IMG/VR virus record: IMGVR_UViG_3300009506_000110
Span: 1 to 40,168 of that record
Direction: 5' to 3' (one strand)
Length of the DNA stretch: 40,168 nucleotides
DNA from: a virus
Part shown: positions 4,394-34,907 of the stretch, piece after piece
How the letters are laid out: the number at the start of each line of letters is the position of its first letter
Position numbering within the stretch: the stretch's first letter is position 1
The notes under the pieces: model-generated
Seen by the model: the letters and a program-made list of their open reading frames with translations, nothing else
Told to the model about the DNA's origin: nothing
Databases searched by the model: none
Program-made: the position numbers and the translations under genes

Positions 4394-4549
4394 TTGAAGA
4401 ACTGGTCTGTTTCCATAACGGATAGAAATCCGTTTGAGGCTTGGTCCGAGATCGTAGACTTCACTTCGTTCAGTAAGACGATTCTCGAATGGGATGCTTA
4501 CGTGCTATTCTGCGAGTATCTCGTTCGCTATCCGGAAATGATGCGATGA
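4394..4549 (+). CDS. Small protein of the RYPEM(F/M)R family, 51 aa, TTG start
   Basis: This short frame begins at a TTG with the duplicated AGGAGGGACTGGAG site and ends at 4549, overlapping the next ATG as ATGA. The last residues are EYLVRYPEMMR, a third instance of the motif seen at 265-468 and 2001-2222. The remainder is unlike the other two. Its small size, strong initiation signal and coupling to the next gene support it. The function is unknown. Confidence 0.5.
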   Translation: MKNWSVSITDRNPFEAWSEIVDFTSFSKTILEWDAYVLFCEYLVRYPEMMR

Positions 4550-5853
4550 AACTCGGGATCGATTATGACGGAACCTGGACGGAAGCCCCGGAGCTCTGGA
4601 GCGAGATCGTACAGATGTTCCAGGACGAGGGCCATGAATGCGTGGTCGTGACTCGTCGCAGCGATCCCGGAACTGCCGAGTATCCGGCCCAGGAAGTCCG
4701 GGATGCGATCGGGGATCAGTGTGAGATCGTGTTCTGCGGTCAGCGTCGCAAAGACAAATGCGTGGATGGGATCGACATCTGGATCGATGACAATCCTGGA
4801 CTGATCGTGATGGACAAGATGCCGAAGGAAGAATCAGGGTTTCGGACCAAAGAGGAGTTCATCGAGTATCTTACCGATTTTCGCAAGATCACGGATGCAC
4901 TGGTGGAGTCCGGTGATCTGATCCGGTTTGAAGCTCCGGGTCTCTACGAACGGGACGACGCAGCGGCTCACGAATATGCTTCGACTATGGTAGAGCCGGA
5001 TGAGGCATTGGCAGATCGGATCAGGGACTGGGCGGCTGAGACAATCTCTGAGGATGATCTCTCAGAGCAGCACGGGTTGGAAGATGAGATTCATATCACG
5101 GCTCTCTATGGATTGTACGATGATGACCCAGGGCCGATCTATGGCACAGCTAAGAAGGTTGAGCCCTTTACTGTAACTCTCGGAAAGCTCGACTCGTTCG
5201 AAACCGATAAGTACGACGTGCTCTTCATTTCGGTGGACTCCCCGGGGCTCGTAGAACTGCATGATGCACTGGCCGAACTGGAGCATACCGATACGCATCC
5301 GAAGTATACCCCGCATCTGACTCTGGCCTATCTTCAGCCAGGAGCTGCTGCGACCTACATCTCGGAATATGGCGATGAGTTTGTCGGAGAAGAGTTTGAT
5401 GTGGACGAGGTCATCTTCAGCGATACGATGGGCGAGAGGACCGTGGCGCGGCTGAAAATGCAGGAGAGTATAATGATTCGAACCAATATACCGGAGAATG
5501 AAACTCGCCAAGTTCTGAGAGCTTGGTATCAGGAATCTATTGGAGAGCAGCAAGAGCGGTGTCGAAATTTTACTCCCATTGCAGATCAATTGATTGAGCA
5601 AGAGCTGCGGCTCATGGAAAAGAAGTGGTCAGCCGATGTGACAAAGAAAGAGAAGTGGCATCCGCCCGAAGGCTTCTTTACGGGGTCAGCAGATTCGATT
5701 GCTTCCGGTTTGAAAAGTGCTTCGTCCAGTCTTAAACAGGCGATGAGTCGTTTGAATTTTTATATCAATCGACAAGGCTCAAATCTGAGTGCGACGGATA
5801 AGAAGAAACTGGACTCGGTGAAGAACAAGTTGCGGAAACTGTACGGAGAATAA
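4546..5853 (+). CDS. HAD phosphatase / 2H phosphoesterase / DUF3175-like fusion, 435 aa
   Basis: Residues 1-90 have HAD motifs: DYDGT at 6-10 (nucleophile D6), T36 after a hydrophobic strand, Lys near 69-71, and IDDNP at 80-84. Residues about 150-305 carry two HxT motifs of 2H phosphoesterases (H183-I-T185 and H257-L-T259), as in LigT-type RNA phosphodiesterases and the phage anti-CBASS enzyme Acb1. A linker with IADQLIEQEL at 345-354 follows. Residues 359-435 resemble DUF3175 (SRLNFYINRQGSNL). I chose the ATG at 4546 over 4489 because it overlaps the previous stop and begins the HAD domain cleanly. Likely roles are removal of phosphates or cyclic phosphates from RNA ends, or degradation of signalling nucleotides. 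The linker motif suggests packaging in the head and cleavage after E351. Two tRNA genes follow directly. Confidence 0.75.
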   Translation: MKLGIDYDGTWTEAPELWSEIVQMFQDEGHECVVVTRRSDPGTAEYPAQEVRDAIGDQCEIVFCGQRRKDKCVDGIDIWIDDNPGLIVMDKMPKEESGFRTKEEFIEYLTDFRKITDALVESGDLIRFEAPGLYERDDAAAHEYASTMVEPDEALADRIRDWAAETISEDDLSEQHGLEDEIHITALYGLYDDDPGPIYGTAKKVEPFTVTLGKLDSFETDKYDVLFISVDSPGLVELHDALAELEHTDTHPKYTPHLTLAYLQPGAAATYISEYGDEFVGEEFDVDEVIFSDTMGERTVARLKMQESIMIRTNIPENETRQVLRAWYQESIGEQQERCRNFTPIADQLIEQELRLMEKKWSADVTKKEKWHPPEGFFTGSADSIASGLKSASSSLKQAMSRLNFYINRQGSNLSATDKKKLDSVKNKLRKLYGE

Positions 5854-5930
5854 CCGAGTGTAGCTCAGTTTGGTAGAGCACTGCGTTTGGGACGCAGGGG
5901 TCGGGGGATCGTGACCCTCCACTCGGACCA
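5854..5930 (+). tRNA. tRNA-Pro (anticodon UGG)
   Basis: The 77 bases fold as a cloverleaf. The acceptor stem pairs CCGAGTG with CACTCGG, followed by an A discriminator and encoded CCA. The D stem is GCTC/GAGC, and the anticodon stem CTGCG/CGCAG carries loop TTTGGGA (anticodon TGG). The T arm is odd: the stem is GGGGG/CCCTC and the loop is ATCGTGA, with A at position 54 and T at 58 instead of the usual T54-A58. It starts right after the stop of the HAD/2H gene and lies two bases before tRNA-Tyr. Confidence 0.85.
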
Positions 5931-5932
5931 GT

Positions 5933-6019
5933 GGAGGGGCGGCAGAGACGGCGAGCTGCGGTGGACTGTAAATCCATTATCTTCGGGTTGAGTAGGTTCG
6001 AATCCTACCCCCTCCACCA
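5933..6019 (+). tRNA. tRNA-Tyr (anticodon GUA)
   Basis: The 87 bases form a class II tRNA. The acceptor stem pairs GGAGGGG with CCCCTCC, followed by A and encoded CCA. The anticodon stem GTGGA/TCCAT encloses CTGTAAA (anticodon GTA). A long variable arm (TATCTTCGGGTTGA) follows, and the T arm GTAGG TTCGAAT CCTAC is canonical. It is immediately downstream of tRNA-Pro and probably co-transcribed with it. Confidence 0.92.
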
Positions 6020-6036
6020 TTCAACGGAGAGTAAAC

Positions 6037-6522: not shown

Positions 6523-6537
6523 GCGGGGATCGATCCT

Positions 6538-6930
6538 ATGCAACGACGCAAGGTTATGGTGGGGAAGGGCCGCACCTTTACTCAGGCAGAAGTCAGGGCT
6601 GCGGCTCGCCAGAAACGCAAGATGAAGTTCACGGGTCCAGCGAAGACTCTCAAGACTGTGCGGTTCGAACAGGCGGATCGGCTGATCTGGCGCGAGCTGG
6701 TTGAGATGAGCCTGGACTTTGGTCAGGTCGATCAGATCGCTAAGAAACGAAACTGGAGCCAGCAAAGAGCTGCTGGCTATATGGCGGGGCAGCAAGCGGC
6801 GGCGCAGGGCAATCGCTTCGCTGGCCTGGGTCAATCGGAGTGGAGAGCAACGGACGACTTCGCAGTCGGCTATCGGGAGGGATTCAAAGACGCTGAGTAT
6901 TCTGCGAACCTCCCTGCATTGCGAGCCTGA
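6538..6930 (+). CDS. Basic protein with an ADRLI motif, 130 aa
   Basis: The N-terminal 35 residues are strongly basic, then EQADRLIWRELVEMSL (residues 44-59) gives a divergent copy of the recurring ADxLIxxEL motif. The C-terminal half, containing AGYMAGQQAAAQGNRF and DFAVGYREGFKDAEYS, has spaced Gly-Tyr repeats slightly like ribosome modulation factors. I do not consider that a firm match. The ribosome site (GCGGGGA) is moderate. The stop overlaps the next ATG as TGATG. Confidence 0.6.
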   Translation: MQRRKVMVGKGRTFTQAEVRAAARQKRKMKFTGPAKTLKTVRFEQADRLIWRELVEMSLDFGQVDQIAKKRNWSQQRAAGYMAGQQAAAQGNRFAGLGQSEWRATDDFAVGYREGFKDAEYSANLPALRA

Positions 6931-7061
6931 TGTCTGACATAGCCCTAATTTTGCTGACCATCTTACTGGGTGGGACAGCCGTCGTGCTCCAATGCCAGCA
7001 TGACAAGAACCACTTACCTCCCAGACCCTCACGGAGAGATAAGAGTGACGAGAATCGCTGA
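6930..7061 (+). CDS. Single-pass membrane microprotein, 43 aa
   Basis: The ATG at 6930 overlaps the previous stop (TGATG). After MSD comes a hydrophobic helix of about 17 residues (IALILLTILLGGTAVVL), then a basic hydrophilic tail rich in Arg and Lys. The coding end overlaps the repeated cassette that starts the next gene, so part of the tail is encoded by the cassette. It is one of four tiny membrane peptides in the window. A role in the envelope or lysis is possible but not supported further. Confidence 0.45.
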   Translation: MSDIALILLTILLGGTAVVLQCQHDKNHLPPRPSRRDKSDENR

Positions 7062-7281
7062 CAAATTGATTGAGCAGGAATTGAAGGATCAATTGGTCCG
7101 ATGCAAGGACTGTAAGTGGTGGGGTCGTCATGCTGACCAAGTGTGCGATCGTACCAATAACATACAGACGGAGAGTGGGCCTCAGATGTTTGCTGTGGAT
7201 GCCACGGCTGCTGACGATCAAGGTCTCGATGCTTGGTTGGAGACTGGTCCTGAGTTTGGCTGTATCCACGGTGAAGCGTAA
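7045..7281 (+). CDS. Small zinc-site protein with N-terminal IADKLIEQEL, 78 aa
   Basis: The GTG at 7045 follows CGGAGAGATAAGA. The protein opens MTRIADKLIEQEL, nearly identical to the starts of the genes at 7601 and 7889. Residues 18-78 form a separate module with CKDCKWWG near the start and FGCIHGE at the end, a four-ligand Cys/His pattern seen in small phage proteins. I infer that the first ten residues are a capsid-targeting signal, cut after LIE, and that the zinc module is cargo. An upstream ATG at 6970 in the same frame lacks a ribosome site. Confidence 0.7.
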   Translation: MTRIADKLIEQELKDQLVRCKDCKWWGRHADQVCDRTNNIQTESGPQMFAVDATAADDQGLDAWLETGPEFGCIHGEA

Positions 7282-7580
7282 TGATGAAACGACTGGCTGA
7301 CAAATTGATCGAGGCAGAAGTGGACAGCTTAGACAACGAATTGTCCTATGATTACAACTATCTTGCGTCCCTCGTAAGAATGGCAGAGAGATTATCCAGA
7401 GCTATTGACAAAGCATTAGAATGGGTTTCGGAAGAAGAGGAAGAATTGGATTTTGGTACACCCTCTGCCAACGAACTTTATGCTGCTTCAGAAAAATTTC
7501 GTGATGTTATCGATCATATTCGGAAAGCAGAAAATGAATTGAATCTTAGTAGAGAAGAATTTGAAAGAGAAGGGCAGTAG
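7281..7580 (+). CDS. Helical protein with N-terminal LADKLIEAEV, 99 aa
   Basis: The start codon overlaps the previous stop (TAATG). A second ATG at 7284 is equally possible and gives MKRLADKLIEAEV. After this signal-like N-terminus the rest is predicted helical, acidic and coiled-coil-like (ERLSRAIDKALEWVSEEEEE). The DNA is AT-richer than its neighbours. By position and N-terminus it belongs to the set of putative head-packaged proteins. No enzymatic motif is visible. Confidence 0.65.
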   Translation: MMKRLADKLIEAEVDSLDNELSYDYNYLASLVRMAERLSRAIDKALEWVSEEEEELDFGTPSANELYAASEKFRDVIDHIRKAENELNLSREEFEREGQ

Positions 7581-7600: not shown

Positions 7601-7861
7601 GTGACGAGAATCGCTGACAGACTGATCGAGCAGGGGTTACATGAGATGTCATTGAATGTCGCTAATAAATTAGAGAGATCAATAGGCTTGGTTGATAAAG
7701 CTCGGGAGCGTATTACTCGTTTATTGGACGAAGTGACGACTATAGAGGTTGTAGACATTCTTTATGATGCTCTTATTAGCTTGGAAGAGGCGAATGAGCA
7801 TATATATAAGGCTGCGGACGCTGAGCGGGAGCGGGGTGGCAATACACCTATAGTTATGTGA
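7601..7861 (+). CDS. Helical protein with N-terminal IADRLIEQGL, 86 aa
   Basis: The GTG at 7601 lies in a second copy of the initiation cassette, identical over 41 bases to that at 7023-7063. The protein starts MTRIADRLIEQGL and continues as an acidic, mainly helical protein of coiled-coil character (KLERSIGLVDKARERITRLL). Its body has the same general architecture as the neighbour at 7281, so the two may be diverged duplicates. Head packaging is inferred from the N-terminus. Confidence 0.65.
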   Translation: MTRIADRLIEQGLHEMSLNVANKLERSIGLVDKARERITRLLDEVTTIEVVDILYDALISLEEANEHIYKAADAERERGGNTPIVM

Positions 7862-7888: not shown

Positions 7889-8266
7889 GTGACAAGAATC
7901 GCTGACAAATTGATCGAGCGCGAACTGCGGTTGATGGAGCAGGAGCCGGAAGAGTTCGGCATGGAAGAACCGATGCCGGATGCGACAGACCTGGAAGAGC
8001 CGGAGGGGCGCGAGTTCGATCAGTATGTCCAGGTACGTGAAGAGGAACTGGAGCCTGGTACAAGTCTGTTCTTCCGTGTGGAGACACCCTTCCGCTACGG
8101 TGATCTCCGAGGCATCAAGGGTGATGTCCTTGAACTGGAGCAGAGCGGGATGAGCGGGAATACATACTGGTTCAGCGGCGGTACTGCTACCAGTGGGGTA
8201 CGAATCGAATTGGATCAGGTCAACGACTTGCTCCGTAAACAACGAATCTCCAGAGAGGTAGACTAA
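7889..8266 (+). CDS. Small acidic protein with N-terminal IADKLIEREL, 125 aa
   Basis: The GTG at 7889 follows ACGGAGAAAG. The protein begins MTRIADKLIERELRLMEQE, then an acidic linker to about residue 45, then a compact beta-rich domain (ELEPGTSLFFRVETPFRYG and IKGDVLELEQSG). The RELRLMEQ extension also matches the linker of the HAD/2H protein (QELRLMEK), so the signal may extend beyond the core. No function is recognised for the beta domain. Confidence 0.7.
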   Translation: MTRIADKLIERELRLMEQEPEEFGMEEPMPDATDLEEPEGREFDQYVQVREEELEPGTSLFFRVETPFRYGDLRGIKGDVLELEQSGMSGNTYWFSGGTATSGVRIELDQVNDLLRKQRISREVD

Positions 8267-8267
8267 A

Positions 8268-16027: not shown

Positions 16028-16915
16028 ATGAACGACCAGTTTCTGAACTTGATGAATCGATTCGCAGAGATGCTTCCTGCCGAATCCCGCTACGATCTGG
16101 GAACTATCGATTCTGTGGAAGTCGAATCGGACAGTGACATGACCCGTTACATCGTATCGGCGGAGGTAGAGTATCCGGAGAAGTATTCGAATCGTGCCAA
16201 GCTCGGCTATATCAAGGTGTATCTGGACGAGGTGAGTGGCGACGAGGAATTTGTAACGGTGGAGGGGAGCCCGTTTAGCTTCGATACGGAGCAGACCTTC
16301 GAACCTCCCTACGATGAGGACGAGATTATGAGAGCACTAATCCGTGCGGCGGACAAAGCAATCGAATTGGGAGGAAATGATAGTCCGATGGACGAATGTG
16401 AAACGATTGCGGATCGGCTGATTCAGGAAGTGCTCAAGGGAAAAACGGTCGAATCGGTAACGACTAATTATTTCTACTATCCTCCGGTCACACAAGCGAA
16501 GCGTCGTCGGAAGAAGACGAAGGTTTCTTCCCTGGTTGGCAGAGGCACACAGGAGTCAAAGACCATGAAACGAATCAGTCTGGTGGAAGTGGTGAAACAG
16601 CGTGGTCCGGTGCGGGAGCAGGAAAATCCTGAAGACTATAGTAAGTATCTGATTGATGGCTCTTATGGGATATACATCGCTCAGGAATTTGCTCGTCGAT
16701 ACGATCCGGAACAGTGGGGCATGGATCAGGAAACGTGGGATATTCTGCTCGATGGCCCTGACAACGAATTGTATGACGATGCGTGGCTCGATCTTTTGCA
16801 AGATGCTGAATTTACGGAACCTCAAACGGGATTGACTTGGTATTTGGTTGGCGGAGACGGGTTGTGGGCTGTCCGAACCGATACCCCCGAGGAACTGATT
16901 CCGGATCAATTTTGA
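16028..16915 (+). CDS. Multi-domain protein with IADRLI and processing motifs, 295 aa
   Basis: A CGGAGAGATAG site precedes the ATG. Residues 1-120 form an acidic alpha/beta domain. TIADRLIQEVLKGKTVES (residues 126-143) is a copy of the recurring head-signal motif. A very basic linker (AKRRRKKTKV) follows. At residue 180 an internal Met lies in MKRISLVEVVKQRG, followed by P194-V-R-E197 then Q198, a match to the (I/V)xE-Q site. AGGAG at 16551-16555 precedes this internal ATG (16565). The C-terminal 98 residues form an acidic domain (YGIYIAQEFARRYDPEQWG). I infer a polyprotein cut into at least two parts in the prohead. Confidence 0.65.
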   Translation: MNDQFLNLMNRFAEMLPAESRYDLGTIDSVEVESDSDMTRYIVSAEVEYPEKYSNRAKLGYIKVYLDEVSGDEEFVTVEGSPFSFDTEQTFEPPYDEDEIMRALIRAADKAIELGGNDSPMDECETIADRLIQEVLKGKTVESVTTNYFYYPPVTQAKRRRKKTKVSSLVGRGTQESKTMKRISLVEVVKQRGPVREQENPEDYSKYLIDGSYGIYIAQEFARRYDPEQWGMDQETWDILLDGPDNELYDDAWLDLLQDAEFTEPQTGLTWYLVGGDGLWAVRTDTPEELIPDQF

Positions 16916-17319
16916 TGCTCGAAAAAGGACACTACCCCACAGCGGATGCTCTTATCAAGAGATTGATGGAGAGCGGTGAATCCAACATTGATCCCCTGGT
17001 AGGCGACTACGAAGACGGGGGTTTCTCAAATATCCTGGTAGGCTTTCTCCAGAGCCACGGAGTCCGAGTCTACCGCAACGAACGGTTTATGCCAGCAACA
17101 GGTGTCTCCACGTTCATCCTGGAGTTCCTAGCTCGCAATCAGAGGCAATATAAGCTGCGGGTAGAAAGTGTGGACGGGATTCCATCTCGTACCCGGATTC
17201 AATGTACGACCACGAAGTATCGTAAGGTTTGTGAAGCAGCTGAATCGGAGATGTTCGAAATGATTCGGGACACAGTGCTCCAGGGTAACGAAACGATCTA
17301 CGAAGACCTGATCCGATAA
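16915..17319 (+). CDS. Hypothetical protein with TADALIKRLM N-terminus, 134 aa
   Basis: The ATG at 16915 overlaps the previous stop (TGATG). Residues 9-18 (TADALIKRLM) look like a divergent version of the ADxLI motif, placed near the N-terminus as in the genes at 7045-7889. No E follows LI, so cleavage there is doubtful. The body is alpha/beta (GVSTFILEFLARNQRQYKLR). The function is not recognised. Confidence 0.6.
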   Translation: MLEKGHYPTADALIKRLMESGESNIDPLVGDYEDGGFSNILVGFLQSHGVRVYRNERFMPATGVSTFILEFLARNQRQYKLRVESVDGIPSRTRIQCTTTKYRKVCEAAESEMFEMIRDTVLQGNETIYEDLIR

Positions 17320-18024: not shown

Positions 18025-18031
18025 CTGGCAG

Positions 18032-18090
18032 CTCCGGGATTGCCCCGGAGATAATAGCCTCTAGGTAGGTTCGGTGCAACAACCAGAGGC
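18032..18090 (+). terminator. Two hairpins between paralogous beta-protein genes
   Basis: CTCCGGG at 18032-18038 pairs with CCCGGAG at 18044-18050 (loop of 5). A second stem pairs GCCTCT at 18057-18062 with AGAGGC at 18085-18090 and may be extended inward by GGTT/AACC. No T-run follows either. They may attenuate or stabilise the transcript before the strongly initiated gene at 18114 (GAAAGGAG site). Confidence 0.5.
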
Positions 18091-18113
18091 ATACTCGAAG
18101 AAAGGAGTACAAA

Positions 18114-21319: not shown

Positions 21320-22273
21320 ATGATGCCTGCTAACGTCGTCAAATCGAAGAGCGATGAGAAGTATTGGAAGAAAGCCAAGGAAACCGCCAATGCTCGCGCC
21401 AAAGATGATAGCTCTTTCAAAAAGGATTCGGATGCGTACTGGGCTTTCGTAAACTCCCAGTTCCAGAAGTTTAAGAGCGGAGAGCTCAAATCGGAGAGAA
21501 CGATGAAACGTCGGAAGATTCAGGAAGGTATCCCCGATCCTTATGATTGGTTGGATGAGGTGTGGAGCGATATTCAGGACATGCTAGATGAGTATGTGGA
21601 GATGGATGACTATGCACTCCACGTTGGAACCAGTTCTGACAGTCTCGCTTTCGACGGAACGCAGATCGTAGTTATCACTCCTGTCGTTTATGAAGACGAC
21701 AACGAAAATGAATTTTCCCGCTCCAGCTTTGATGAACACTTTGCTGTTACAGGTGATGTGACCGATGACGAGATTAAGATCACTGTTCAGCTGGTGAATG
21801 CAGGAATGATGGGGCCAGATGAATATACCTATCCGGTCGATTTCAACTCTCGCCCCGATGCTTATGATGCTGCTCGTGAGATCGCGGATCAGATCAATAG
21901 CGACATCGAAGGATATTTCTCTGGTTTGGGACCAGATGATTTTGCGGAGAGCACGATGAAACGTCGGACACCTATTCACGAACAAGCGGTGACAGCCGAT
22001 GCGCTTTACAAGTGGTTCGTCAACAATGCTGGTGCTCCAGCTGAGTTGGCAAACCAGTTCAAGATTCCGTTTGATCTGGCCCGAGCCCTGCATCGAATCG
22101 GACACAGCACTCTCCCCGATGATCCCGCTAAGTTTCGCTCTCAGGCGACCGATGCGATCAACAACTATAAACGGATCGGTAGTTCCCAACAGGAGAGCAC
22201 AGCGGATCAAATGATTCAGCAAGTGCTGAAAGGCGCGAAAGTGGAACGGGTCGTGGAAGCGGCTCGTAAATAA
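21320..22273 (+). CDS. Putative polyprotein with two internal MKRR/IxE junctions, 317 aa
   Basis: An AAGGAG site precedes the ATG pair at 21320/21323. Residues 1-60 are a small basic domain (SDAYWAFVNSQFQKFKSGE). Residue 62 begins MKRRKIQEG, with I67-Q-E69 then G. Residues 70-210 are an acidic domain. Residue 213 begins MKRRTPIHEQ, with I219-H-E221 then Q. Then comes a helical domain, ending in ADQMIQQVLKGAKVERVVEA (residues 295-314), related to motifs in the proteins at 28067 and 33945. GGAGAG precedes both internal ATGs (21503 and 21956). It looks like three fused small genes with cleavage sites at each joint. Confidence 0.65.
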   Translation: MMPANVVKSKSDEKYWKKAKETANARAKDDSSFKKDSDAYWAFVNSQFQKFKSGELKSERTMKRRKIQEGIPDPYDWLDEVWSDIQDMLDEYVEMDDYALHVGTSSDSLAFDGTQIVVITPVVYEDDNENEFSRSSFDEHFAVTGDVTDDEIKITVQLVNAGMMGPDEYTYPVDFNSRPDAYDAAREIADQINSDIEGYFSGLGPDDFAESTMKRRTPIHEQAVTADALYKWFVNNAGAPAELANQFKIPFDLARALHRIGHSTLPDDPAKFRSQATDAINNYKRIGSSQQESTADQMIQQVLKGAKVERVVEAARK

Positions 22274-23838: not shown

Positions 23839-25431
23839 ATGTTTGATTTCGGAGCTATTTTTGAGAGTGCGATGCGGAAACAATCGGATTCGCAGAAGGA
23901 GCGGACAGCTCCGGAGTCGAAGCATCGTGTAAACGAAGAGAAAGGTTCAATCTCTCCAGACTTCCAAGCGTTTCTCAACGATTTGGATAGCGAGTTGGAG
24001 AAGATGGGAGTCGATCATAGCTCCTGGATCAATTTCGGACCGTTCCGTTATGTGCAGGACAATGAGACGGTTAGCACCGAAGTCGTGCCTGACATTGCTG
24101 ATCCGTTTGATCTCTACGTGTCCTATTTTCCTGAAGATTCTACCGTTGTGGTGCGAGCCCATGAACCGGGCCAGACCGGAGAGACATATCGTATCGATCT
24201 GATGGTGCAGGCCGATTACGGAATCGAAGATGCCGAGATCGTGGCTGGGGACATCGCTTCCAGCATCGAAGACTTGAACGATAATTACAGCGGTATCGAT
24301 CTCCGCAGCGAATCCAAACGCAACCGCCGTCGCCGGATCAAAGAGCAGGGCGAGGTCGATACGGTCGAAGCCAAGTTCTCGATCTATTTTGGTATTGATT
24401 GGCTCCAGCAGGACGTTACCGAAATGTTCGGTGGGACCGATGAGTACAATGTTCGGGATCGGAAGAAGTATGCTGCTAAAGGTCTGATGCAGGACAACGA
24501 AGAAGCGACTCTGACCGAGCGTGGCTGGGATGAAATCTCCCAGGCCATGTACGAGATTCAGGAGAACGTCAAGGATTGGCTCGCTCAGCAATTCGAAAAT
24601 GCGTGGATCGAGAAATACGATTACGACGGATGCTTCGGGTATGTTGAATTCGATCCGGAAAACCAACAGCAGCTCCAGTTGCTGAGGGAAGGTAGTGAGG
24701 AGACCATTTTTCTGACGGAGACTACGGAAGGTTCCAATGTCGTTTATCACGGTGTCAGTGACATCGGTGGTTTGCTCTCTCCGGGTTTGCAGTTCAGTGG
24801 AGCTAACTACTTCCTGAAACGTATGGGGAAGACCGAATCCAAACGCAAAAGCCGTCGTGATCCTGTCACTGAGGCGATCGGAGACCTCCTCTGTCGGTTT
24901 GACGTGCTCCAGCGGCTCGATCAGTTGGCCCTGGAGCAGACCTTAGCGATGCCCCCAATCTTCGGTTTGGTCAAACAGCAGCTTCCCAAGGAACCTGAAG
25001 AGCTTCAGGAGCGTATCGCCAAGGGGCTTTTCCGGCTGCTGAGCCAACACGAAGCCCTGGATACGGCTCAGTGGCCCTTTTCCCCGGTTCACGCGCTTAC
25101 AGAGGCTGTGAGTGGACCGGTAGACCCTGATGCGGCTCAGGAGCTCCGGCTTTACATTGACAATGATGGTGATCTCTACCGTCAGATGACGACTCCGATT
25201 ATCAACAATTTGATGCGAAAGTGGAAAAAAGGGACTTACGACTCCGAATTGGCTGTGAAAGCGTTTATGTATCTGGCCAATGAGGGGGCGCGAAAATATG
25301 TCCGCGAGCATGGCGGCCCCGGCGATCGGGTAGACACGGTGTTCAATAAGAATACCAGGATGGAAGTGGCGAAAGCTTTGCGCGACTCTTTTGAAGGTGA
25401 AGCCGAACTTGGAAATTATGATCGGTTCTAA
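23839..25431 (+). CDS. Putative polyprotein with RRRRIKE-Q and RRDPVTE-A joints, 530 aa
   Basis: A GCGGAGAAAAACG site precedes the ATG. Residues 1-155 are an acidic alpha/beta domain, loosely like those at 20370 and 21320. KRNRRRRIKEQG (residues 160-171) holds I167-K-E169 then Q. Residues 172-330 are a second domain (FSIYFGIDWLQQDVTEMFGG). KRKSRRDPVTEAIG (residues 335-348) holds V343-T-E345 then A. The last 95 residues (LRLYIDNDGDLYRQMTTPI, GTYDSELAVKAFMYLA) are a domain often seen in phage genomes, of unknown function. Each joint has the same basic-run plus (I/V)xE form, so cleavage into three products is inferred. Confidence 0.7.
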   Translation: MFDFGAIFESAMRKQSDSQKERTAPESKHRVNEEKGSISPDFQAFLNDLDSELEKMGVDHSSWINFGPFRYVQDNETVSTEVVPDIADPFDLYVSYFPEDSTVVVRAHEPGQTGETYRIDLMVQADYGIEDAEIVAGDIASSIEDLNDNYSGIDLRSESKRNRRRRIKEQGEVDTVEAKFSIYFGIDWLQQDVTEMFGGTDEYNVRDRKKYAAKGLMQDNEEATLTERGWDEISQAMYEIQENVKDWLAQQFENAWIEKYDYDGCFGYVEFDPENQQQLQLLREGSEETIFLTETTEGSNVVYHGVSDIGGLLSPGLQFSGANYFLKRMGKTESKRKSRRDPVTEAIGDLLCRFDVLQRLDQLALEQTLAMPPIFGLVKQQLPKEPEELQERIAKGLFRLLSQHEALDTAQWPFSPVHALTEAVSGPVDPDAAQELRLYIDNDGDLYRQMTTPIINNLMRKWKKGTYDSELAVKAFMYLANEGARKYVREHGGPGDRVDTVFNKNTRMEVAKALRDSFEGEAELGNYDRF

Positions 25432-25444: not shown

Positions 25445-27736
25445 ATGATTATCAGCGAAGTGACGATCAAAACGAAGTCGGGTCAGGCCGTAAATGTTGG
25501 GCCTGGCGATTTCGCATTGGTCCGAAGCCAAGCCTCGAATGCGAGCCCCAGCTTTTTCCCCGTTCGAGTCTCAAGTGTTGGAGAACAGGGAGCCGTGGTT
25601 TCCACCGTCATCAATGGCAAGGGCATCGAGAAGAATATCTCTCTGTCCGAGATGATCGGCTATCCGTCGCAGGACTCGGCAAGGGCCGAAATCAAATCGA
25701 CTTGGCCCTGGCATTACGACGTGCTGCTGACCCAACAGGTCGGTGCTCCTATTGTGACGGAACAGGCAGAGGAGACCGAACGATGGGTCTTTACGAAGGC
25801 ACAGCTCAAGAATCCGAAAGGTCTCCGTAGAGACGATGAGCTGATTGCCCTTGTTACTCCTGATGAACCTTCAGAGGGGGTGGATGTCATCGTTTATCGA
25901 AACGGAGAAGTTTCGAACCGTTTCGGAGATGGAACCGTTGGATTGCCAGAAGAGGTTTACGTTGCGGCTCAGGATGAGGATAAGCTCTTTGATGAAGAGG
26001 AGGATGACTGGGCTGATAATTGGCGAGATGTCATCGTGGATGCGGACGGAAACTTCGTCCGCTTTGCCGATGAAGAGTCTGCTCAGGAATCTCGATCCGC
26101 TTTGCGTCGATCCTTGAAACTGATCGAAGTTGATGGGATGGAAGACGATTACGAGGAGCAGGACGAAGACCTTCCCCGCGAGATGGGAACGGGCAAAGAC
26201 TTCGAAGATGAGGAAGAAGAACCGGAATATGAATTCGAAGGTCCGATGTTTGAAGAGGGCGATGAGGAATCGGACACATCAGATATGACCGTAGATGGTT
26301 CTCCATTGCCCAGCTCTTCAGGGAACTACAATGTGCAAACCTCGGAAGAATCTCCGGTTGGACCAGATACATCCGATTTCCTAGGTATGACGGACAAAGA
26401 CATCGATGTGGGAGCCGAGCCCCTCGCTGTCTTCGATCCGGGTGAAGCAGAAACCAAAGGAGCCGAAGGCGGCTTCAAACCAACAGGAGGTAGCTCGATG
26501 GAACGAAGCATTCTTCGTCGCGCCATGCGATTCCAGGAAACCGATCCTTGGCTGCGTAAGGCTGACCAGTTGATCGAATCGATGGAGGTTCGAGAAAAGG
26601 GAGGTCTGGAATATCAACCTTCTGCCGAGACAGAGGAAACTCCGTCCGATATGAAGGCGAGGAAACGGAACAAGGCCGGGAAAGGCTCTCCGCGCATGAA
26701 AGAGCGTTTGCTCCGGAAACGGCGGATGCAGGAGCTGGCTCAGACACAGAGAGTGCGCGGCGTCCAGACAGATGTGGTTAGTCGCGGTGGGGAAACTATC
26801 GTTACCTATCGTGGAACTCCTGTGGTGGTCTTCGATGATAGTAAGATCGAGTTGAATACGGGCGGCTGGAAAACGGCGACTACGAAGACTCGCATGAACC
26901 AAGCATCGAACCAGTATGATCTGGGCTATCAGGTTGTTCAAAAAGGCGGCGAGTGGTTCGTCAAACAGGTGAATGGGCAGACCATTCCGTTTGAAGGGAA
27001 TAGCTTGATAATCAATCGTGGTGGCATGCGAGAGCGTCGTTCCCGCCGTCGTCCTGTCCGTGAAGCCGGTGATCTCGAATATCTGGATTTCGCCAAGATC
27101 GCCAATGCTAAGGACTACTCGGTTGGCATGGATACTCGTCCCTTCCTGAACACGCTGAAGAAGGATACGAAGCTGGGGGATGATTCCCTGGGTTCAAACA
27201 CGGGCGATACCGGATCATTGGGTATTTCGGTACGCGATAATTCTGGTGGCGGCGGTATTATCGGTGGGGATGATGTGGACTTCAGTGCTCCCGACATCGA
27301 AGCTCCGGATGATGAGAGTTCTGAGATCGATCCATTGTTGCCGGGGGCCGATGGAACGATGGGCACGGATAAAGACTTGAGTGGTCCTTCTAGCGGCTCA
27401 TTGCCCGATGAGGAGTCTTCATTGCCAAATCTGGTCCAGGGCGTTGTCCAAGCGGTGAACCGCAATCTTGGTGCTCCTCCTTTGGCTCCTGCTACGGATG
27501 ATGAGGGTGAGATTCCGAAGACGGATGCGGCCAAAGTGATTGCGCCGAAAAACACGAAGCTGGGAGCAGCTCCGTTCTCCGCGAAAGTGGATGCGGACAA
27601 GGTTCCGGATACCGGCGCGAATAAAGTGATTGCTCCGGCTAACCGAGAACTTGGAGCGAAGTCTCTGGAAGCCAGGAAACGTGCTGCCCGTCGTCGCCGG
27701 TTGGAGCGTCAGCGTCGTCGTAAGGAGGTCGAATGA
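25445..27736 (+). CDS. Large acidic multi-domain protein with processing motifs, 763 aa
   Basis: I chose the ATG at 25445 (GGGAGAAAGCAG upstream) over 25391, which overlaps the previous gene. Segments in order: an N-terminal beta domain; PIVTEQAEETE (V104-T-E106 then Q); a WVFTKAQLKNPKG domain; a very acidic low-complexity stretch (about 240-300); an internal Met at 352 with AGGAGG upstream (26485-26490); KADQLIESME (372-381); a conserved phage domain (YRGTPVVVFDD, LNTGGWKTATTKTRMNQ, KGGEWFVKQ); RSRRRPVREAGDL (V538-R-E540 then A); and a Gly/Asp-rich tail with two copies of KVIAP(K/A)N(T/R)(K/E)LGA and a basic end. It is likely a processed core or internal head protein, given its place before the protease gene. 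Confidence 0.7.
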   Translation: MIISEVTIKTKSGQAVNVGPGDFALVRSQASNASPSFFPVRVSSVGEQGAVVSTVINGKGIEKNISLSEMIGYPSQDSARAEIKSTWPWHYDVLLTQQVGAPIVTEQAEETERWVFTKAQLKNPKGLRRDDELIALVTPDEPSEGVDVIVYRNGEVSNRFGDGTVGLPEEVYVAAQDEDKLFDEEEDDWADNWRDVIVDADGNFVRFADEESAQESRSALRRSLKLIEVDGMEDDYEEQDEDLPREMGTGKDFEDEEEEPEYEFEGPMFEEGDEESDTSDMTVDGSPLPSSSGNYNVQTSEESPVGPDTSDFLGMTDKDIDVGAEPLAVFDPGEAETKGAEGGFKPTGGSSMERSILRRAMRFQETDPWLRKADQLIESMEVREKGGLEYQPSAETEETPSDMKARKRNKAGKGSPRMKERLLRKRRMQELAQTQRVRGVQTDVVSRGGETIVTYRGTPVVVFDDSKIELNTGGWKTATTKTRMNQASNQYDLGYQVVQKGGEWFVKQVNGQTIPFEGNSLIINRGGMRERRSRRRPVREAGDLEYLDFAKIANAKDYSVGMDTRPFLNTLKKDTKLGDDSLGSNTGDTGSLGISVRDNSGGGGIIGGDDVDFSAPDIEAPDDESSEIDPLLPGADGTMGTDKDLSGPSSGSLPDEESSLPNLVQGVVQAVNRNLGAPPLAPATDDEGEIPKTDAAKVIAPKNTKLGAAPFSAKVDADKVPDTGANKVIAPANRELGAKSLEARKRAARRRRLERQRRRKEVE
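26485..26500 (+). promoter_or_regulatory. Internal ribosome site and ATG in the 763-aa gene
   Basis: AGGAGG at 26485-26490 lies seven bases before an in-frame ATG at 26498. Initiation here would give a nested product starting MERSILRRAM, just ahead of the ADQLIES motif. It may be a functional internal start or the fossil start of a gene now fused in frame to an upstream one. Confidence 0.45.
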
Positions 27737-28077
27737 AACATCGTAGTCTCATAGCCGACCTGAGCTCTCATTGTGGAGAGAACATTGTTCCGATCCATGA
27801 GCAGGGTGAATACGAGCTAACATACCTGGATGCCTTGACGGATACCAGGGATTATCTCCAGAGCTATTTGAGTCGCATCGATGAGTTTATCGGTGAGATC
27901 GATGATGACGAATATCTCCTATCCAAAACCTATTCGGCTAATCTTCTTCTGTCGAGTCCGGATCGAGACGATCTCAACTACTATCTGTCCGATGTTTCCG
28001 AAGCTTTGATTCAGCTTGGTCGAAAAGTCGAACAGAAGATTGCAGAGCTTGATGAGGCATTGAAGAATGCTGGCTGA
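27733..28077 (+). CDS. Small helical protein with IHE-Q site near N-terminus, 114 aa
   Basis: The ATG overlaps the previous stop by four bases with AAGGAGG upstream. The N-terminus MKHRSLIADLSSHCGENIV is followed by P20-I-H-E23 then Q24, matching the (I/V)xE-Q signal and its MKxR context. The rest is acidic and helical (YLDALTDTRDYLQSYLSRID). After removal of 23 residues it would be a small helical core protein. Its position immediately before the protease and scaffold fits a prohead role. Confidence 0.65.
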   Translation: MKHRSLIADLSSHCGENIVPIHEQGEYELTYLDALTDTRDYLQSYLSRIDEFIGEIDDDEYLLSKTYSANLLLSSPDRDDLNYYLSDVSEALIQLGRKVEQKIAELDEALKNAG

Positions 28078-28336
28078 TCGCATGATTGAAGCGGTGTTGC
28101 AGGGAGAATCTCCGGAGAGAGTAGTGGAGTTCGTCCAGCATCAAACAGCCCTCGACAAGTTCAACAAGGATAATCCCGACCCTAAAAAATCTCGGGCTAT
28201 GAAAAAGGCGCATCGTGACAACAAATCGAACTACGATAAGGGACAGCGTAAGAGCTCGATCAGCCCTGATCGGAAGAGGGCTACCAGGGGAGTCGCCCGA
28301 CACAACGAACGACCCCGAACCCCCTCAGTCTGGTAA
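28067..28336 (+). CDS. Small basic protein with N-terminal ADRMIEAVLQG, 89 aa
   Basis: The ATG at 28067 overlaps the previous gene by 11 bases. The N-terminus MLADRMIEAVLQGESPERVV is the second form of the head-signal motif (ADxxIExVLxGxxxxxVVE), also found at the C-terminus of the protein at 21320 and the N-terminus of that at 33945. From residue 35 the protein is very basic (KKSRAMKKAHRDNKSNYDKG), as in DNA-binding internal head proteins. It overlaps the next frame by a long stretch, so its exact C-terminal extent is less certain. Confidence 0.55.
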   Translation: MLADRMIEAVLQGESPERVVEFVQHQTALDKFNKDNPDPKKSRAMKKAHRDNKSNYDKGQRKSSISPDRKRATRGVARHNERPRTPSVW

Positions 28337-28660: not shown

Positions 28661-30316
28661 ATGCGCGAACCACAAATCGCAACACGTCTGTTTGAGTACA
28701 AGGTTCTCGAACGTCGGAGAGAGCAGCTACCCGAAGGAGTTTTGCTTCGCATGGGTGGTCTGGGACAACGAGTAGGCGAGGAAAACCAGAATGGTAGGGT
28801 CTACTCGGAAAGCCTGTGGGACCGTGTTCTCAATGAGGAGAAATTCTGGGATCGCGTGAAGACCCGCGAAATGCTGGGTGAAGCCGATCATCCTGACGAT
28901 GGAAAGACCTCGATTCCCAGGGTCAGCCATATTGTGACGGCAGTGGAACGTCGCGGAAATGAAATCTGGGTCGAGTTTGAGGTTTTGAATACCCCTACTG
29001 GTCAGATCGTGGAAACGCTGGTCAATGCAGGGGCGCGAATCGGCATCTCGTCTCGCGGCACAGGTAGTGTGGTGGAACGAGAGGGAACAACCTACGTGGA
29101 TGAAAGCGACTTCGAGTTGGAGACCTGGGACATCGTTACGAATCCCTCGACTCGCGGGGCGTATCCGCAGCGGTTAGAGTCGGTTCGAGAGGACAATGCG
29201 AAAATTGTTCTCGGCACGGCGGAACGGCTTTGTGATTCTGAGACCTCGTTGCAACGATTGCATGAGGTAAAAGGAATCGTGGCCGACCTTTACACGGAGC
29301 AGCACAGTGTCAAACGTGAAATGCTGCTCGAACGTATTGAATCCCAAATCACAGAACAAGAGTTGAAGGAGAAGGACATGCCTGGACTCAAAGACCCTAA
29401 CGGTCTGGGTGAGACAGTCACTCTCGTCAATGAACTCGCTGAAGCCAAGGCGAAGGAGAAGATCGCCGCTGCCGAGAAATTGGTAAGCGAGCGCGACTCT
29501 CAAATCGCGGACATGGCAAAAGAGATGAAACGGTTGCAAGAGCAGAGCCGCAGGCTCCGTCGTCAGCCAGTTTCCGAGCAAGGTGACGAAGAGGAATTTC
29601 CGGATGCGGAAACCGTGGACTCCCCGCAAACGCTGGAGGTCGATGGGATCGTGACGATCATCCCGAATGCTGATCTCGAACCCGAATTGGACGATGAAGA
29701 GCTGGAGATGCCGGAAGAGCGGCGTCGTGCTCATCGCGCCCTGGAACGCAAACGTCTCATGGCTCGCCGTGTAGCCGAAAAGAAGAAGTGCAAAAAGAAG
29801 CGGCCCGGTATGAAACCGGAGATGGAGAATCGCAGGATTCGCCGTCCGGTGCGGAACGAACAGCTGGGCCGACAGCTTCTGGCTGCGAAGCGCGTGATCG
29901 AGAAGCAGCATCGTGAGCTGCAAGCTGCGAAAAAGCTACTCGAACAATTTGCGAAGACCTCTGTCTCCAAGCGGCAATACGAGAAGGCGCGAAAAGCGAT
30001 CGCTTCGACATTGAAGAATCAGCAGCACGAAGAGATTAAGAAGTATGTTTTCGGGAGGATTAGCCGGTTCAGCGAATCCGATCAGAAACGACTGCTTCGC
30101 GCCTTGGGCAAGGTTCGTGACCTGGATGAAGCGAAGCAACGCTTGGAGAGTATTCTGAGTGTGGCGACTTCGCAGAAAACGGGCAAGAAACGTCGCATGA
30201 CGGAGCGGGAGCCGCTTCCCGGACAGCGTGGAACCCAGTTGAATGAGAGGACCAGCAATAAGCCGGTTCCTACCAGCTCACTGGTCAGCACGATTGTCAA
30301 GGCGGTGAACAAGTAA
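28661..30316 (+). CDS. Prohead protease fused to scaffold (T4 gp21-gp22 type), 551 aa
   Basis: Residues 1-190 are a T4 gp21-type prohead protease (peptidase family S77). They have the His motif EMLGEADHPD, the serine motif ARIGISSRGTGSV, and the conserved opening with NQNGRVYSESLW. Residues 200-551 are a charged, coiled-coil scaffold (AEAKAKEKIAAAEKLVSERD), with basic segments and several (I/L/V)xE sites, such as RRQPVSEQG (V304-S-E306 then Q) and KRLQEQ. The C-terminal tail ends LVSTIVKAVNK. In T4 the two functions are separate adjacent genes, so this is a fusion. A nested start at 29378 would give scaffold alone. The enzyme matures the prohead and removes scaffold and signal peptides. Confidence 0.9.
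   Translation: MREPQIATRLFEYKVLERRREQLPEGVLLRMGGLGQRVGEENQNGRVYSESLWDRVLNEEKFWDRVKTREMLGEADHPDDGKTSIPRVSHIVTAVERRGNEIWVEFEVLNTPTGQIVETLVNAGARIGISSRGTGSVVEREGTTYVDESDFELETWDIVTNPSTRGAYPQRLESVREDNAKIVLGTAERLCDSETSLQRLHEVKGIVADLYTEQHSVKREMLLERIESQITEQELKEKDMPGLKDPNGLGETVTLVNELAEAKAKEKIAAAEKLVSERDSQIADMAKEMKRLQEQSRRLRRQPVSEQGDEEEFPDAETVDSPQTLEVDGIVTIIPNADLEPELDDEELEMPEERRRAHRALERKRLMARRVAEKKKCKKKRPGMKPEMENRRIRRPVRNEQLGRQLLAAKRVIEKQHRELQAAKKLLEQFAKTSVSKRQYEKARKAIASTLKNQQHEEIKKYVFGRISRFSESDQKRLLRALGKVRDLDEAKQRLESILSVATSQKTGKKRRMTEREPLPGQRGTQLNERTSNKPVPTSSLVSTIVKAVNK
29366..29380 (+). promoter_or_regulatory. Internal ribosome site and start for a nested scaffold protein
   Basis: AAGGAG at 29366-29371 lies six bases upstream of an in-frame ATG at 29378 (residue 240). 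Translation from here would yield a 312-aa scaffold beginning MPGLKDPNGLGETV without the protease domain. The layout matches the nested protease/scaffold genes of lambda (C and Nu3). It would supply scaffold in excess of protease. Confidence 0.65.
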
Positions 30317-30371: not shown

Positions 30372-31856
30372 ATGTTGCGGAATCAACAGCAAGCTCAGCT
30401 CCAGCAAGAGCAGCTCTTCGAGCACGGTCTCTCGCTGGCGCGGAAAGCTCCGTACAAGGATTTCTGCCTGTACGAAGGTGTGGATGCGCGTGGTCGCAAA
30501 GAACGTGTGACCTTCGCTCAGCTGCACGAAGGTTTGGAGCGTACCCCTGACTGGATCGTGGCACAGACAATGGTGATGTGCGAGAACCTCCACAAGTATA
30601 TGGGGACGATGAACGAAACGGTCCGGGCTCTGAACTTTGGCAAGTTCCAGAAGTATGCGTTCCCCTTGGTCAGGGCGGTGTGGCCCAACCTGATTGCTCA
30701 CGAGCTCGTCAGTGTTCAGCCCATGCAGGGTCCGACCGGACTGGTCTTCTACATGAAGTTCATTTACGGTTTGTCCAAGGGCAATGTTATTGCTGGTCAG
30801 GACGTGATCGAAAACCCGAACTACGAATACTCTTCGGAGAATGTGACGGGTGAAGCAGTGGGTGCGGCTGGCGCTGCTAACCAAGCGGGTCGGGTCATGT
30901 TCTATCCGGTGCGTCCCGGTACGTTCCGTGCCACCGATGGTACGCAGATCGTGACGGATGATGGCAATGGAAACATCATTGGTGACATCGGTGCGGGTAC
31001 GAACACCTTGGACTACCGGACCGGCGCGTATGACTTCGATTTTGCGGCGGCTCCTACGGTTCAGCCCACGGCAAATTATGTGTACCGCATGGAAGCCAAT
31101 GACAACCTTCCAGACCTGGAATTGACGATCGAGTCGTCCCAGGTCGAGCCCCGTGAGTCGAAACTTCGTGCTCAGTGGAGCGTCGAAGCTAGCCATGACT
31201 TGATGGTGGTTTACGGTGAAGACCTCGAAACGCAGCTGGTCGGTGCGCTCGGTCAAGAGCTCAAGTTTGAAATTGACCGTCGTATCATCCAGCGTCTGCG
31301 CCAAATTGCTCGGGCCACCGAAGCGGCGGCTCCCGGCATCGTCGGTGGTGAGCGCGTCTGGCCTGGTAAACCGCCGAGTGGCGTTGACTTCCCGACCCAC
31401 AAGCTGACTCTGCTCGACTACGTGATGATTCCGTCTTCGAACGACATTTTGAAGGCGACGCAGCGTGGTCGGGGACAGTGGGCCGTGATCGGTATCGACG
31501 TGGCGAACATCATCGAGTCGCTTCCCGGATTCGAGTCGTATGGCACGAAGATCGAGGGTCGTGGCGTGTGGAAGCTTGGTAAGCTGAATAACCGCTGGGA
31601 AATCTTCCTGGATACGTACAATGAGGCGGATGGAACCAGCATTGATGAGAAGCTGTTGATCGGCTACAACGGTACGCAGATGTTCGATACCGGATTCGTC
31701 TTCGCACCTTACGTGCCTTTCTATACGACTCCGACTGTCAATTCTCCGAACGCTGAGTTCGTGATGAAGAAAGGTATTGCCAGTCGTTACGCGATGAAGG
31801 AAATCGATTCTCGGTTCTACACGAATGCGCGGATCGACCGTACCCTGACTCCGTAA
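30372..31856 (+). CDS. Major capsid protein (T4 gp23-type), 494 aa
   Basis: An AAAGGAGATAACG site precedes the ATG. The segment FPLVRAVWPNLIAHELVSVQ, followed by PMQGPTGLVFYMKFIYG, and the end SRYAMKEIDSRFYTNARIDR are characteristic of gp23-type capsid proteins. The N-terminus would be removed by the prohead protease. Candidate sites are L15-F-E17, L33-Y-E35 and L51-H-E53, the last just before the folded part and similar in position to T4 (after residue 65). Residues about 177-243 hold an inserted beta module (TDDGNGNIIGD, NTLDYRTGAYDFDF) like that in the proteins at 17332 and 18114. A strong hairpin follows the gene. Confidence 0.93.
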   Translation: MLRNQQQAQLQQEQLFEHGLSLARKAPYKDFCLYEGVDARGRKERVTFAQLHEGLERTPDWIVAQTMVMCENLHKYMGTMNETVRALNFGKFQKYAFPLVRAVWPNLIAHELVSVQPMQGPTGLVFYMKFIYGLSKGNVIAGQDVIENPNYEYSSENVTGEAVGAAGAANQAGRVMFYPVRPGTFRATDGTQIVTDDGNGNIIGDIGAGTNTLDYRTGAYDFDFAAAPTVQPTANYVYRMEANDNLPDLELTIESSQVEPRESKLRAQWSVEASHDLMVVYGEDLETQLVGALGQELKFEIDRRIIQRLRQIARATEAAAPGIVGGERVWPGKPPSGVDFPTHKLTLLDYVMIPSSNDILKATQRGRGQWAVIGIDVANIIESLPGFESYGTKIEGRGVWKLGKLNNRWEIFLDTYNEADGTSIDEKLLIGYNGTQMFDTGFVFAPYVPFYTTPTVNSPNAEFVMKKGIASRYAMKEIDSRFYTNARIDRTLTP

Positions 31857-32756: not shown

Positions 32757-32759
32757 AAA

Positions 32760-33664: not shown

Positions 33665-33665
33665 G

Positions 33666-33740
33666 ATGAACACAGGAATTTTCGTATTCATCCTGGTTGC
33701 GCTTTGCGTAATCTGCGTTTTCATAATCGCAGGAGATTGA
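33666..33740 (+). CDS. Single-pass membrane microprotein, 24 aa
   Basis: The ATG at 33666 lies one base after the previous stop, with TGGAGGATGAG as ribosome site. The peptide is MNTGIFVFILVALCVICVFI followed by IAGD, almost entirely one hydrophobic helix. Its 3' end contains an AGGAG that serves the next gene. It resembles the microproteins at 6930, 12825 and 15222. A coding function is plausible but a pure spacer with a ribosome site cannot be ruled out. Confidence 0.45.
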   Translation: MNTGIFVFILVALCVICVFIIAGD

Positions 33741-33741
33741 G

Positions 33742-33942
33742 ATGTATGATCGAAAGAAGCTGGGTCATCTACTGACCGTGGAAAATCAGAATCCACATCC
33801 AGCAGCGAATGCTGATTACTTCGCATTGCTAGCTGATCTACAGGGAAAAGTGATCCCTCTTCTATTCACAGAGGATCAGATCAAGGATGCTCTTTACCGA
33901 GCCGAACAGAATCCGGAAGACCTGAAAGTCCTGGAGGACTAA
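33742..33942 (+). CDS. Small hypothetical protein, 66 aa
   Basis: The ATG follows the previous stop by one base, with AGGAGATTGAG upstream. The protein has LTVENQNPHPAANADYFALL and a helical C-terminal half (TEDQIKDALYRAEQNPEDL). No family is recognised. It lies within the neck gene cluster. Confidence 0.6.
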   Translation: MYDRKKLGHLLTVENQNPHPAANADYFALLADLQGKVIPLLFTEDQIKDALYRAEQNPEDLKVLED

Positions 33943-33944
33943 GA

Positions 33945-34907
33945 ATGAAAACTGCAACCAAACTGATCGAGAGCGTTCTGAGCGGAGCTTCTGTGCAGAA
34001 AGTAGTTGAAGCAGAAATGGACAATCCTTTTAAGGGATCAGGAGCCGGTGCTCGTCAGCGTGAAGCTATGCTGCGCTGGGCCGAGATCAAAGACGAAGCG
34101 TCTCGGTTGAGAGCGCAGATGAATGATCTTGATCAGGAAGCGAAAGAGATTGCCGAAGAACTCGGAATGGTGGAAATCATCGAACGAATGGATGAGCAGA
34201 TCGCCTATCTCGATGAGATTCAGAAGAAGATCACGTTGACGACCAAGCCAAATCCAAAGTATGCACAGCTTTGGAAAGATTTGCGTGAACGCATTCTCAA
34301 CGAACTTGGGGAACAGGCAGCGGCTATTACGGCTCTGATGGATGAGATGCTGGATGCGCATTTGAAATCTACGATGAGCACGGCTCCAGTCCTGCGGAAA
34401 TTCTCGAAGGCCGATGTGAAGAAACGTGGCGTTGGGGAAGCGAGTATCGGCAGTATGCTCAAGGGGGTATGGAATAAATTGAAAAAGGCGATTCAAGGTC
34501 TGTTCAAACGCTCCGACCAGATAGATACTGATCTGGAGAAACTGGATCAGGCTGTTTCCGGTCAAGCAGAGTCTCGTCGCCCCCGTCGTCGGCAGATCAG
34601 GGAAGCCGATGCGTTCGGTTTGATCCCGGATGCGGGTGATGATCCGATGGTGACGGTCAACGATAGCAATAGCTACGTGTTCCAATTCACCGATGGCTTC
34701 ATGGCGAATGCCTACTACGATCTGGTCCGTTCCCGTTTGGCAGGTCTTGTAGTGGACTGGCCGATGATCTCTGGTTTGGCTGGTCAGCGTGAGTGGACCG
34801 TGCGGATCAGTGGGAAAATCTCGGATCGTGAGTTCGGTCTGTTGAAGGACTGGGCCAGCAGCTATGATGGTGAGCTCACTTCGCAAGGCTTATCGTGGGA
34901 GACCTAA
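33945..34907 (+). CDS. Coiled-coil protein with N-terminal LIES signal and IRE-A joint, 320 aa
   Basis: The ATG follows the previous stop by two bases. The N-terminus MKTATKLIESVLSGASVQKV matches the ADxLIExVLxG form of the head signal (L7-I-E9 then S). Even its MKTxxxxI pattern recalls the T4 capsid-targeting peptide. Residues 30-150 are coiled coil. SRRPRRRQIREADAFG (residues 209-224) has I218-R-E220 then A221. The last 100 residues are an alpha/beta domain (SNSYVFQFTDGFMANAYYD). Two cleavages would release a coiled-coil part and a C-terminal domain. Confidence 0.65.
   Translation: MKTATKLIESVLSGASVQKVVEAEMDNPFKGSGAGARQREAMLRWAEIKDEASRLRAQMNDLDQEAKEIAEELGMVEIIERMDEQIAYLDEIQKKITLTTKPNPKYAQLWKDLRERILNELGEQAAAITALMDEMLDAHLKSTMSTAPVLRKFSKADVKKRGVGEASIGSMLKGVWNKLKKAIQGLFKRSDQIDTDLEKLDQAVSGQAESRRPRRRQIREADAFGLIPDAGDDPMVTVNDSNSYVFQFTDGFMANAYYDLVRSRLAGLVVDWPMISGLAGQREWTVRISGKISDREFGLLKDWASSYDGELTSQGLSWET

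Follow-up and report, generated by a model that had tools for sequence, protein, structure and literature searches.

The window analysed here, 40,168 nucleotides long, is a fragment from an uncultured phage (IMG/VR virus record IMGVR_UViG_3300009506_000110, positions 1 to 40,168) and carries T4-type head and tail genes. We were concerned with a short peptide motif of the ADxLIE type, hereafter the tag, which recurs on proteins with unrelated bodies; its carriers occupy a gene block beside a gp21-type protease and the major capsid protein. A sequence-only reading had reported this near-identical motif on twelve proteins, and all 12 copies were recovered at the genes and residues named, in genes of the plus strand. 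A 13th copy, TADALIKRLMESGES, which had been missed, lies near the N-terminus of gene 16915-17319; the orthologue of this gene in the relative G005 has the motif at its N-terminus as well. The tag copies and the two head genes are listed below; products are named hereafter by the start of their gene.

5578..5607, plus strand: tag IADQLIEQEL, internal (residues 345-354) in the 4546-5853 product, between an Acb1-like 2H phosphoesterase domain and DUF3175
6670..6699, plus strand: tag QADRLIWREL, internal in the 6538-6930 product
7045..7083, plus strand: tag VTRIADKLIEQEL, N-terminus of gene 7045-7281
7281..7322, plus strand: tag MMKRLADKLIEAEV, N-terminus of gene 7281-7580
7601..7639, plus strand: tag VTRIADRLIEQGL, N-terminus of gene 7601-7861
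7889..7927, plus strand: tag VTRIADKLIEREL, N-terminus of gene 7889-8266
16403..16465, plus strand: long-form tag TIADRLIQEVLKGKTVESVTT, internal in the 16028-16915 product
16939..16983, plus strand: the 13th tag, in gene 16915-17319
20898..20930, plus strand: tag SIADHLIAEEM, internal in the 20370-21311 product, with a GGAGAG stretch resembling a ribosome-binding site in front
22196..22258, plus strand: long-form tag STADQMIQQVLKGAKVERVVE, C-terminus of the 21320-22273 product
26558..26590, plus strand: tag KADQLIESMEV, internal in the 25445-27736 product, ahead of a Kyano_Gp96-like domain
28067..28129, plus strand: long-form tag MLADRMIEAVLQGESPERVVE, N-terminus of a small basic protein just upstream of the protease
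28661..30316, plus strand: gp21-type head maturation protease with a C-terminal scaffold-like part (phrog_207, E 1.7e-32)
30372..31856, plus strand: gp23-type major capsid protein (phrog_138)
33945..34010, plus strand: long-form tag MKTATKLIESVLSGASVQKVVE, N-terminus of the 33945-34907 product

A six-frame scan of the window with A[DTK].[LIM]I[EQAW] gave 14 matches, 12 in the named proteins and two on the other strand. A related regular expression matched 0.40 times per shuffle of the window proteome (maximum 3 in 300 shuffles) and 10 times in the 312,688 residues of control phage loci, which corresponds to about 0.4 matches expected for the window. Applied to a mechanically picked set of open reading frames (ORFs), from which 7045, 7889 and 28067 are absent because of ORF overlaps, it found 8 matches, one of them on the minus strand, leaving 7 named proteins. 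The tag is N-terminal in 7 of the 13 window copies, and internal or C-terminal in the remainder.

The motif is conserved as a peptide, and not merely as DNA. Across the tandem genes 7045, 7601 and 7889, the tag DNA is 90-93% identical and the bodies are unrelated; 7045 and 7601 share an exact repeat of 41 nucleotides over the ribosome-binding site and the tag, their bodies being 25% identical, i.e. random, so that part of the short form is a recently duplicated 5′ cassette. Other copies encode the same peptide with different codons. Two sub-forms had been proposed, the short one (ADKLIEQEL) and a longer one extending to V-V-E; both are real, but they are not discrete and grade into each other, as seen in G030 with NRADKLIERELKG.

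A profile of the long form was built from 13 seeds taken from the window, two closer relatives and G003. Unseeded matches with E<0.05 were obtained in L040, L042/L110, L044, L046, L056 and L134, mostly within the first 25 residues of small proteins; the best match among shuffled proteins had an E of 0.2, and of 1.5 after retraining. With further copies from whole-contig retrieval, among them the C-terminal tags of G018 and G006, the set comprises 34 distinct copies from the relatives and the window, at N-terminal, C-terminal and internal positions, which keep the frame L/M-I....V-(L/V)-x-G......V-(V/I). The informative logo columns are L/M-I (I in 31/34), L/V at -2, P at +3, V/L at +6 and V/I at +7; the V and G columns are set by the anchoring and thus not countable, and L/V at -2 is partly anchor-set too. 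Structure predictions of low confidence place helices at the tag both in an ADP-ribosyltransferase (ART)-like carrier (residues 3-11 and 16-30) and in the 4546 product (343-364).

The tag is lineage-specific. Capsid and protease searches yielded relatives at 94, 77, 57 and 41-45% capsid identity. The tag occurs in 9 of the 13 loci whose capsid is at least 36% identical to that of the window and in none of the 58 loci below 36%; the protease, by contrast, has a wide distribution. When 2.9 million viral contigs were scanned with a DNA pattern, with no selection on the protease, 37 stretches were returned, and the contigs with at least two real matches belong to this same lineage; scattered single matches lie in arbitrary frames or midway within unrelated ORFs, on contigs mostly without the protease. 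The first long-form DNA pattern had given 18 stretches, G003 alone being clearly real, and the short-form pattern gave zero matches across viral contigs. The consensus tag was not found in 50,697 phage records, its single match being at chance level (E 9). The 595-kb phage LR756511, in which related capsid and 2H genes lie 10 kb apart, was tried as a candidate and yielded no tag match.

A relative that kept the motif and lost the protease was sought, and none was found. G018, recovered by the pattern scan through its C-terminal tag, encodes the protease (E 3.5e-56). G009, G014 and G039 bear the tag and gave no protease match, but they are fragments, G009 with a capsid gene; the tag contigs lacking a protease match are short or partial and overlap protease- or capsid-bearing contigs. 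In the relatives the tag clusters beside the head genes, and it does not extend beyond one lineage, which bears the protease. The 120-kb G003 has nine clear tag genes; every one falls within 40.0-70.5 kb, a short way upstream of the protease and capsid genes, and none of the other G003 genes matched the motif profile. The nominal p of 1.2e-5 for this clustering is too favourable, since the limits of the interval were chosen to enclose the matches. Also in G003 (L011, 4516-6497), three adjacent genes start with another common N-terminal peptide, SIRxxLRxxLL(K)E, which is perhaps a second class of targeting peptide.

The gp21-type protease announced by the sequence-only reading is indeed encoded in the same block of the window, with conserved His and Ser (H77 and S130/S131). 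A diverged, short second copy (a 199-residue frame) was noticed at G030:C1:36981-37199 and G005:C1:25600-25923; a second protease copy has been reported in SPN3US too. The proposal that cutting follows LIE finds no support, as the glutamate at this position is E in only 11 of the 34 long-form copies, and internal and C-terminal copies are ill-suited to a simple removable N-terminal peptide. Judged by residue conservation, the V-V-E end of the tag would be a better candidate: E is the commonest residue there (17/34), and about half of the long-form copies end in V/I/L-x-E. Other candidate cut sites are basic-(I/V)-x-E joints between domains and an L-x-E-G-L sequence of the capsid protein (residues 51-55, conserved in four relatives), which lies in the leader, the expected place of a T4-type cut, and fits the preference expected of the protease.

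The earlier motif survey was right about the tag copies but overlooked a second recurring joint, in which basic residues are followed by x-(I/V)-x-E. The joints and related starts of the window are:

16565..16618, plus strand: joint MKRISLVEVVKQRGPVRE, before the C-terminal phrog_21544-like domain of 16028
20370..20390, plus strand: second-type start MKRRIHE, N-terminus of the 20370 product
21503..21526, plus strand: internal in-frame MKRRKIQE in 21320, ribosome-binding site GGAGAG at 21493
21956..21982, plus strand: internal in-frame MKRRTPIHE in 21320, ribosome-binding site GGAGAG at 21946
24310..24345, plus strand: joint ESKRNRRRRIKE in the 23839-25431 product
27035..27064, plus strand: joint RRSRRRPVRE in the 25445-27736 product, after the Kyano_Gp96-like domain
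34569..34604, plus strand: joint ESRRPRRRQIRE in the 33945 product; in G002 an extra domain stands here, with one joint on each side

Two MKRR sites in 21320 and one MKR site in 16028 combine an in-frame start with a ribosome-binding site, like the start of 20370, and 5 GGAGA-ATGAAACG sites were seen on the strand versus 0.02 predicted from composition. Such internal sites look like either gene-fusion fossils or working internal starts. Many internal tags probably arose by in-frame fusion of adjacent tagged genes, since some internal copies and MKRR sites keep a preceding ribosome-binding site.

Domains have been exchanged among the tagged proteins, with tags and basic joints standing between them. 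The 4546 product joins several effector-type domains in one chain (HAD-like, 2H/Acb1-like and DUF3175), a feature of polyvalent proteins that a 1285-residue G030 protein shares. In G005/G030/G006 the three 4546 parts lie in separate proteins; in G006 the 2H part is followed by a tag and then by a domain with which window gene 23839 ends. The G002 homologue of 25445 (1072 residues) contains two copies of the last 16028 domain, each preceded by KRRKQVRE. The extra domain in the G002 homologue of 33945, flanked on both sides by ERRRPRRR(R)IKE, is a bead of this 1285-residue G030 protein. The L002 homologue of 28067 has an extra domain-sized stretch between tag and body. An N-terminal domain common to G003, G008 and G018, and weakly recognizable in window 21320 (E 0.0065), has the tag after it, but the spacing between the two differs considerably. 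At L185:2795-6649 we observed a bead-on-a-string protein of 1285 residues with many x-T-E-A or V-E-E-A joints and one DUF3175-like bead.

From their domains, the cargo is predicted to comprise injected effectors, namely an Acb1-like enzyme acting against CBASS (cyclic oligonucleotide-based antiphage signalling system) and probable Tpt1/ART-like proteins, together with DNA-binding or core proteins. The 2H domain of the 4546 product scores above the Pfam Acb1 cut-off, and its alignment with solved Acb1 is weak. Tagged paralogues in G006, G005 and G030 share an FHGTS...W..IK..GL motif with sub-threshold Tpt1/KptA matches, and may weakly be called Tpt1/ART-like; a tag-bearing ART-like protein had no match in phage records, and defence-protein profiles matched none of six proteins. 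Reviews place ART and 2H proteins among predicted head-packaged effectors. Pfam reported no metallopeptidase domain in the scanned multi-domain proteins of the window; the tagged HAD protein in G030 shows HELAH. A small metallopeptidase-like protein with HEAFH is encoded at 4046-4381 of the window, ahead of the first tagged gene.

The window also encodes a head-tail adaptor, sheath and tube. A tandem pair of paralogous genes (17332-18749, 34% identical) is kin to the C-terminal part of the relatives' head-tail proteins. In the middle of the head gene block lies a Cys-rich, epidermal growth factor (EGF)-like small lipoprotein (MKRYLILVLGLLVIMAC..., 22324-23310), followed at about 23322 by a signal-peptide protein, and a protein-kinase-like fragment (DIKPDNFGYLPDGNLVCIDYG, about 33302-33664) stands between head genes and has a 324-residue homologue in G005.

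We favour, at a probability of about 0.68, the reading that the motif is a prohead-targeting tag acting like the T4 capsid targeting sequence (CTS), its carriers being head-loaded cargo. Prohead targeting as originally proposed is supported by the sharing of the motif among unrelated bodies, its place beside head genes and its restriction to a protease-bearing lineage, but not in the part concerning the LIE cut. The tag with its reuse, neighbourhood and lineage restriction, the domain shuffling and the protease are observed; docking through a helix, packaging, cutting and injection we infer. The conserved part, (A-D-x)-L/M-I-x-x-V-L-x-G-x-S/D-P-x-x-V-V-E, would fold as two short helices, the first of them amphipathic, joined by a glycine turn, and would most likely bind the internal scaffold during prohead formation, i.e. 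the C-terminal part of the protease fusion or 28067-like core proteins. Scaffold binding would carry the tagged protein into the head, and this cargo, produced next to the head genes, would be injected into the host together with the genome. As the hydrophobic face is kept and the glutamate only loosely, the tag would be a docking helix, with cleavage at its end or at joints close by; probable targets of the gp21-type protease are V-V-E, the basic-(I/V)-x-E joints and the capsid L-x-E-G-L, and such cutting would free single domains in the head. More tentatively, these phages may possess a polyprotein system, in which internal tags load modular effector fusions, the head protease splits the chain inside the capsid and new effectors are added by in-frame fusion.

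Several observations weigh against prohead targeting. Half of the named tags (6/12) are internal or C-terminal, unlike T4 tags, and the profile gave no significant match on the T4 region, hence no detectable similarity to T4 tags. The LIE-position glutamate is inconstant (11/34), and strong basic joints are limited to the window and G002, other relatives showing weaker ones. The predictions for the ART-like carrier and the 4546 product have low confidence (mean pLDDT, the predicted local distance difference test, of 42 and 43) and are therefore unsuited to fold search. Finally, the phages are uncultured and known from sequence alone.

It is possible, if doubtful, that the tag is a stable docking peptide which is never removed and holds the cargo to the scaffold or inner shell, while the protease acts elsewhere. 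Conservation of the hydrophobic frame but not of the LIE-site glutamate would fit this, as would the several tags that end in VVA, VIN, VTT or VMTQ instead of V-x-E, and a T4 mutant CTS that resists cutting still targets. Nevertheless, E is the commonest residue at the tag end, the lineage retains its gp21-type protease, and cut-like joints stand at domain borders. We consider it unlikely that the internal copies are nested genes with internal starts, the long products being minor read-throughs and the functional tag always N-terminal: the two sites in 21320 and the one in 16028, with a ribosome-binding site and in-frame ATGAAACG or ATGAAA, could be read in this way, but internal ADxLIE tags in 4546, 16028, 20370 and 21320 have no adjacent start codon, the 21320 tag is the very C-terminus of its product, and G018 and G006 have C-terminal tags too. 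An assembly or localization signal for a target other than the head, for instance a replication compartment or the tail, is less probable again; tail genes of the same phages adjoin, and only sequences of these phages are at hand, but in G003 every tag gene is upstream of the protease and capsid genes, and the small basic tagged gene stands just upstream of the protease, like T4 core genes 67 and 68. Least credible is a functionless peptide within duplicated 5′ cassettes that serve efficient translation, as the 41 nucleotides shared by 7045 and 7601 and the recurring in-frame GGAGA-ATGAAACG sites might suggest, for the same peptide is elsewhere written in different codons, is also C-terminal and internal, and keeps its frame across relatives at 41-57% capsid identity.

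If prohead targeting is correct, the tag would be an address label for phage-head cargo that can be read from sequence beyond the cultured T4 group. Sequence alone would then suffice to list injected proteins, among them a predicted anti-CBASS-like enzyme that arrives ready-made, and the tag would offer a compact candidate for putting chosen proteins into phage heads. It would also unite two separate ideas, T4-style targeting peptides and polyvalent proteins, whose route of head entry is largely unknown. The latter (Iyer et al. 2017, PMC5512222) are multi-domain proteins, with 2H and ART-type domains, for which carriage in the head and injection are predicted. They are described as processed by a built-in metallopeptidase, whereas here the sites look suited to the head protease; the searched passages of PMC5512222 and of reviews mention no common short tag on polyvalent or head-packaged effectors. 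In phiKZ and SPN3US, as proposed here, many head and ejection proteins are cut by a gp21 relative, after x-x-E, and SPN3US gp53 and gp54 have an identical N-terminus; however, the propeptides of those phages are mostly long (over 100 residues), with few common tags and the cut motif S/A-x-E.

The closest parallel is the T4 CTS, which targets through its own first residues and is cut after I-x-E (L/I-x-E motif) by gp21. As in the T4 proteins IPI, IPII, IPIII and Alt, a short peptide, in part of the copies with an L/I-x-E-like end, is borne by unrelated, sequence-diverse cargo, with a gp21-type protease co-encoded; T4 cargo is delivered with the DNA, and injection would be the counterpart here. 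Kinship of the tag to T4 gp67, encoded at the same place before the protease, was considered and rejected: the two look alike by eye, and the profile gave only 2.3 and -0.9 bits. T4 Alt is a packaged ADP-ribosyltransferase cut at both ends by gp21, whereas the tagged ART-like proteins of G005, G006 and G030 are nearer to Tpt1/KptA and weakly recognised. The tag of the present lineage differs from the T4 CTS in its many more carriers and in its long form of 20 residues with a helix-G-helix plan. T4 labels are known at protein ends only, whereas here the tags also stand at C-termini and inside multi-domain fusion proteins.

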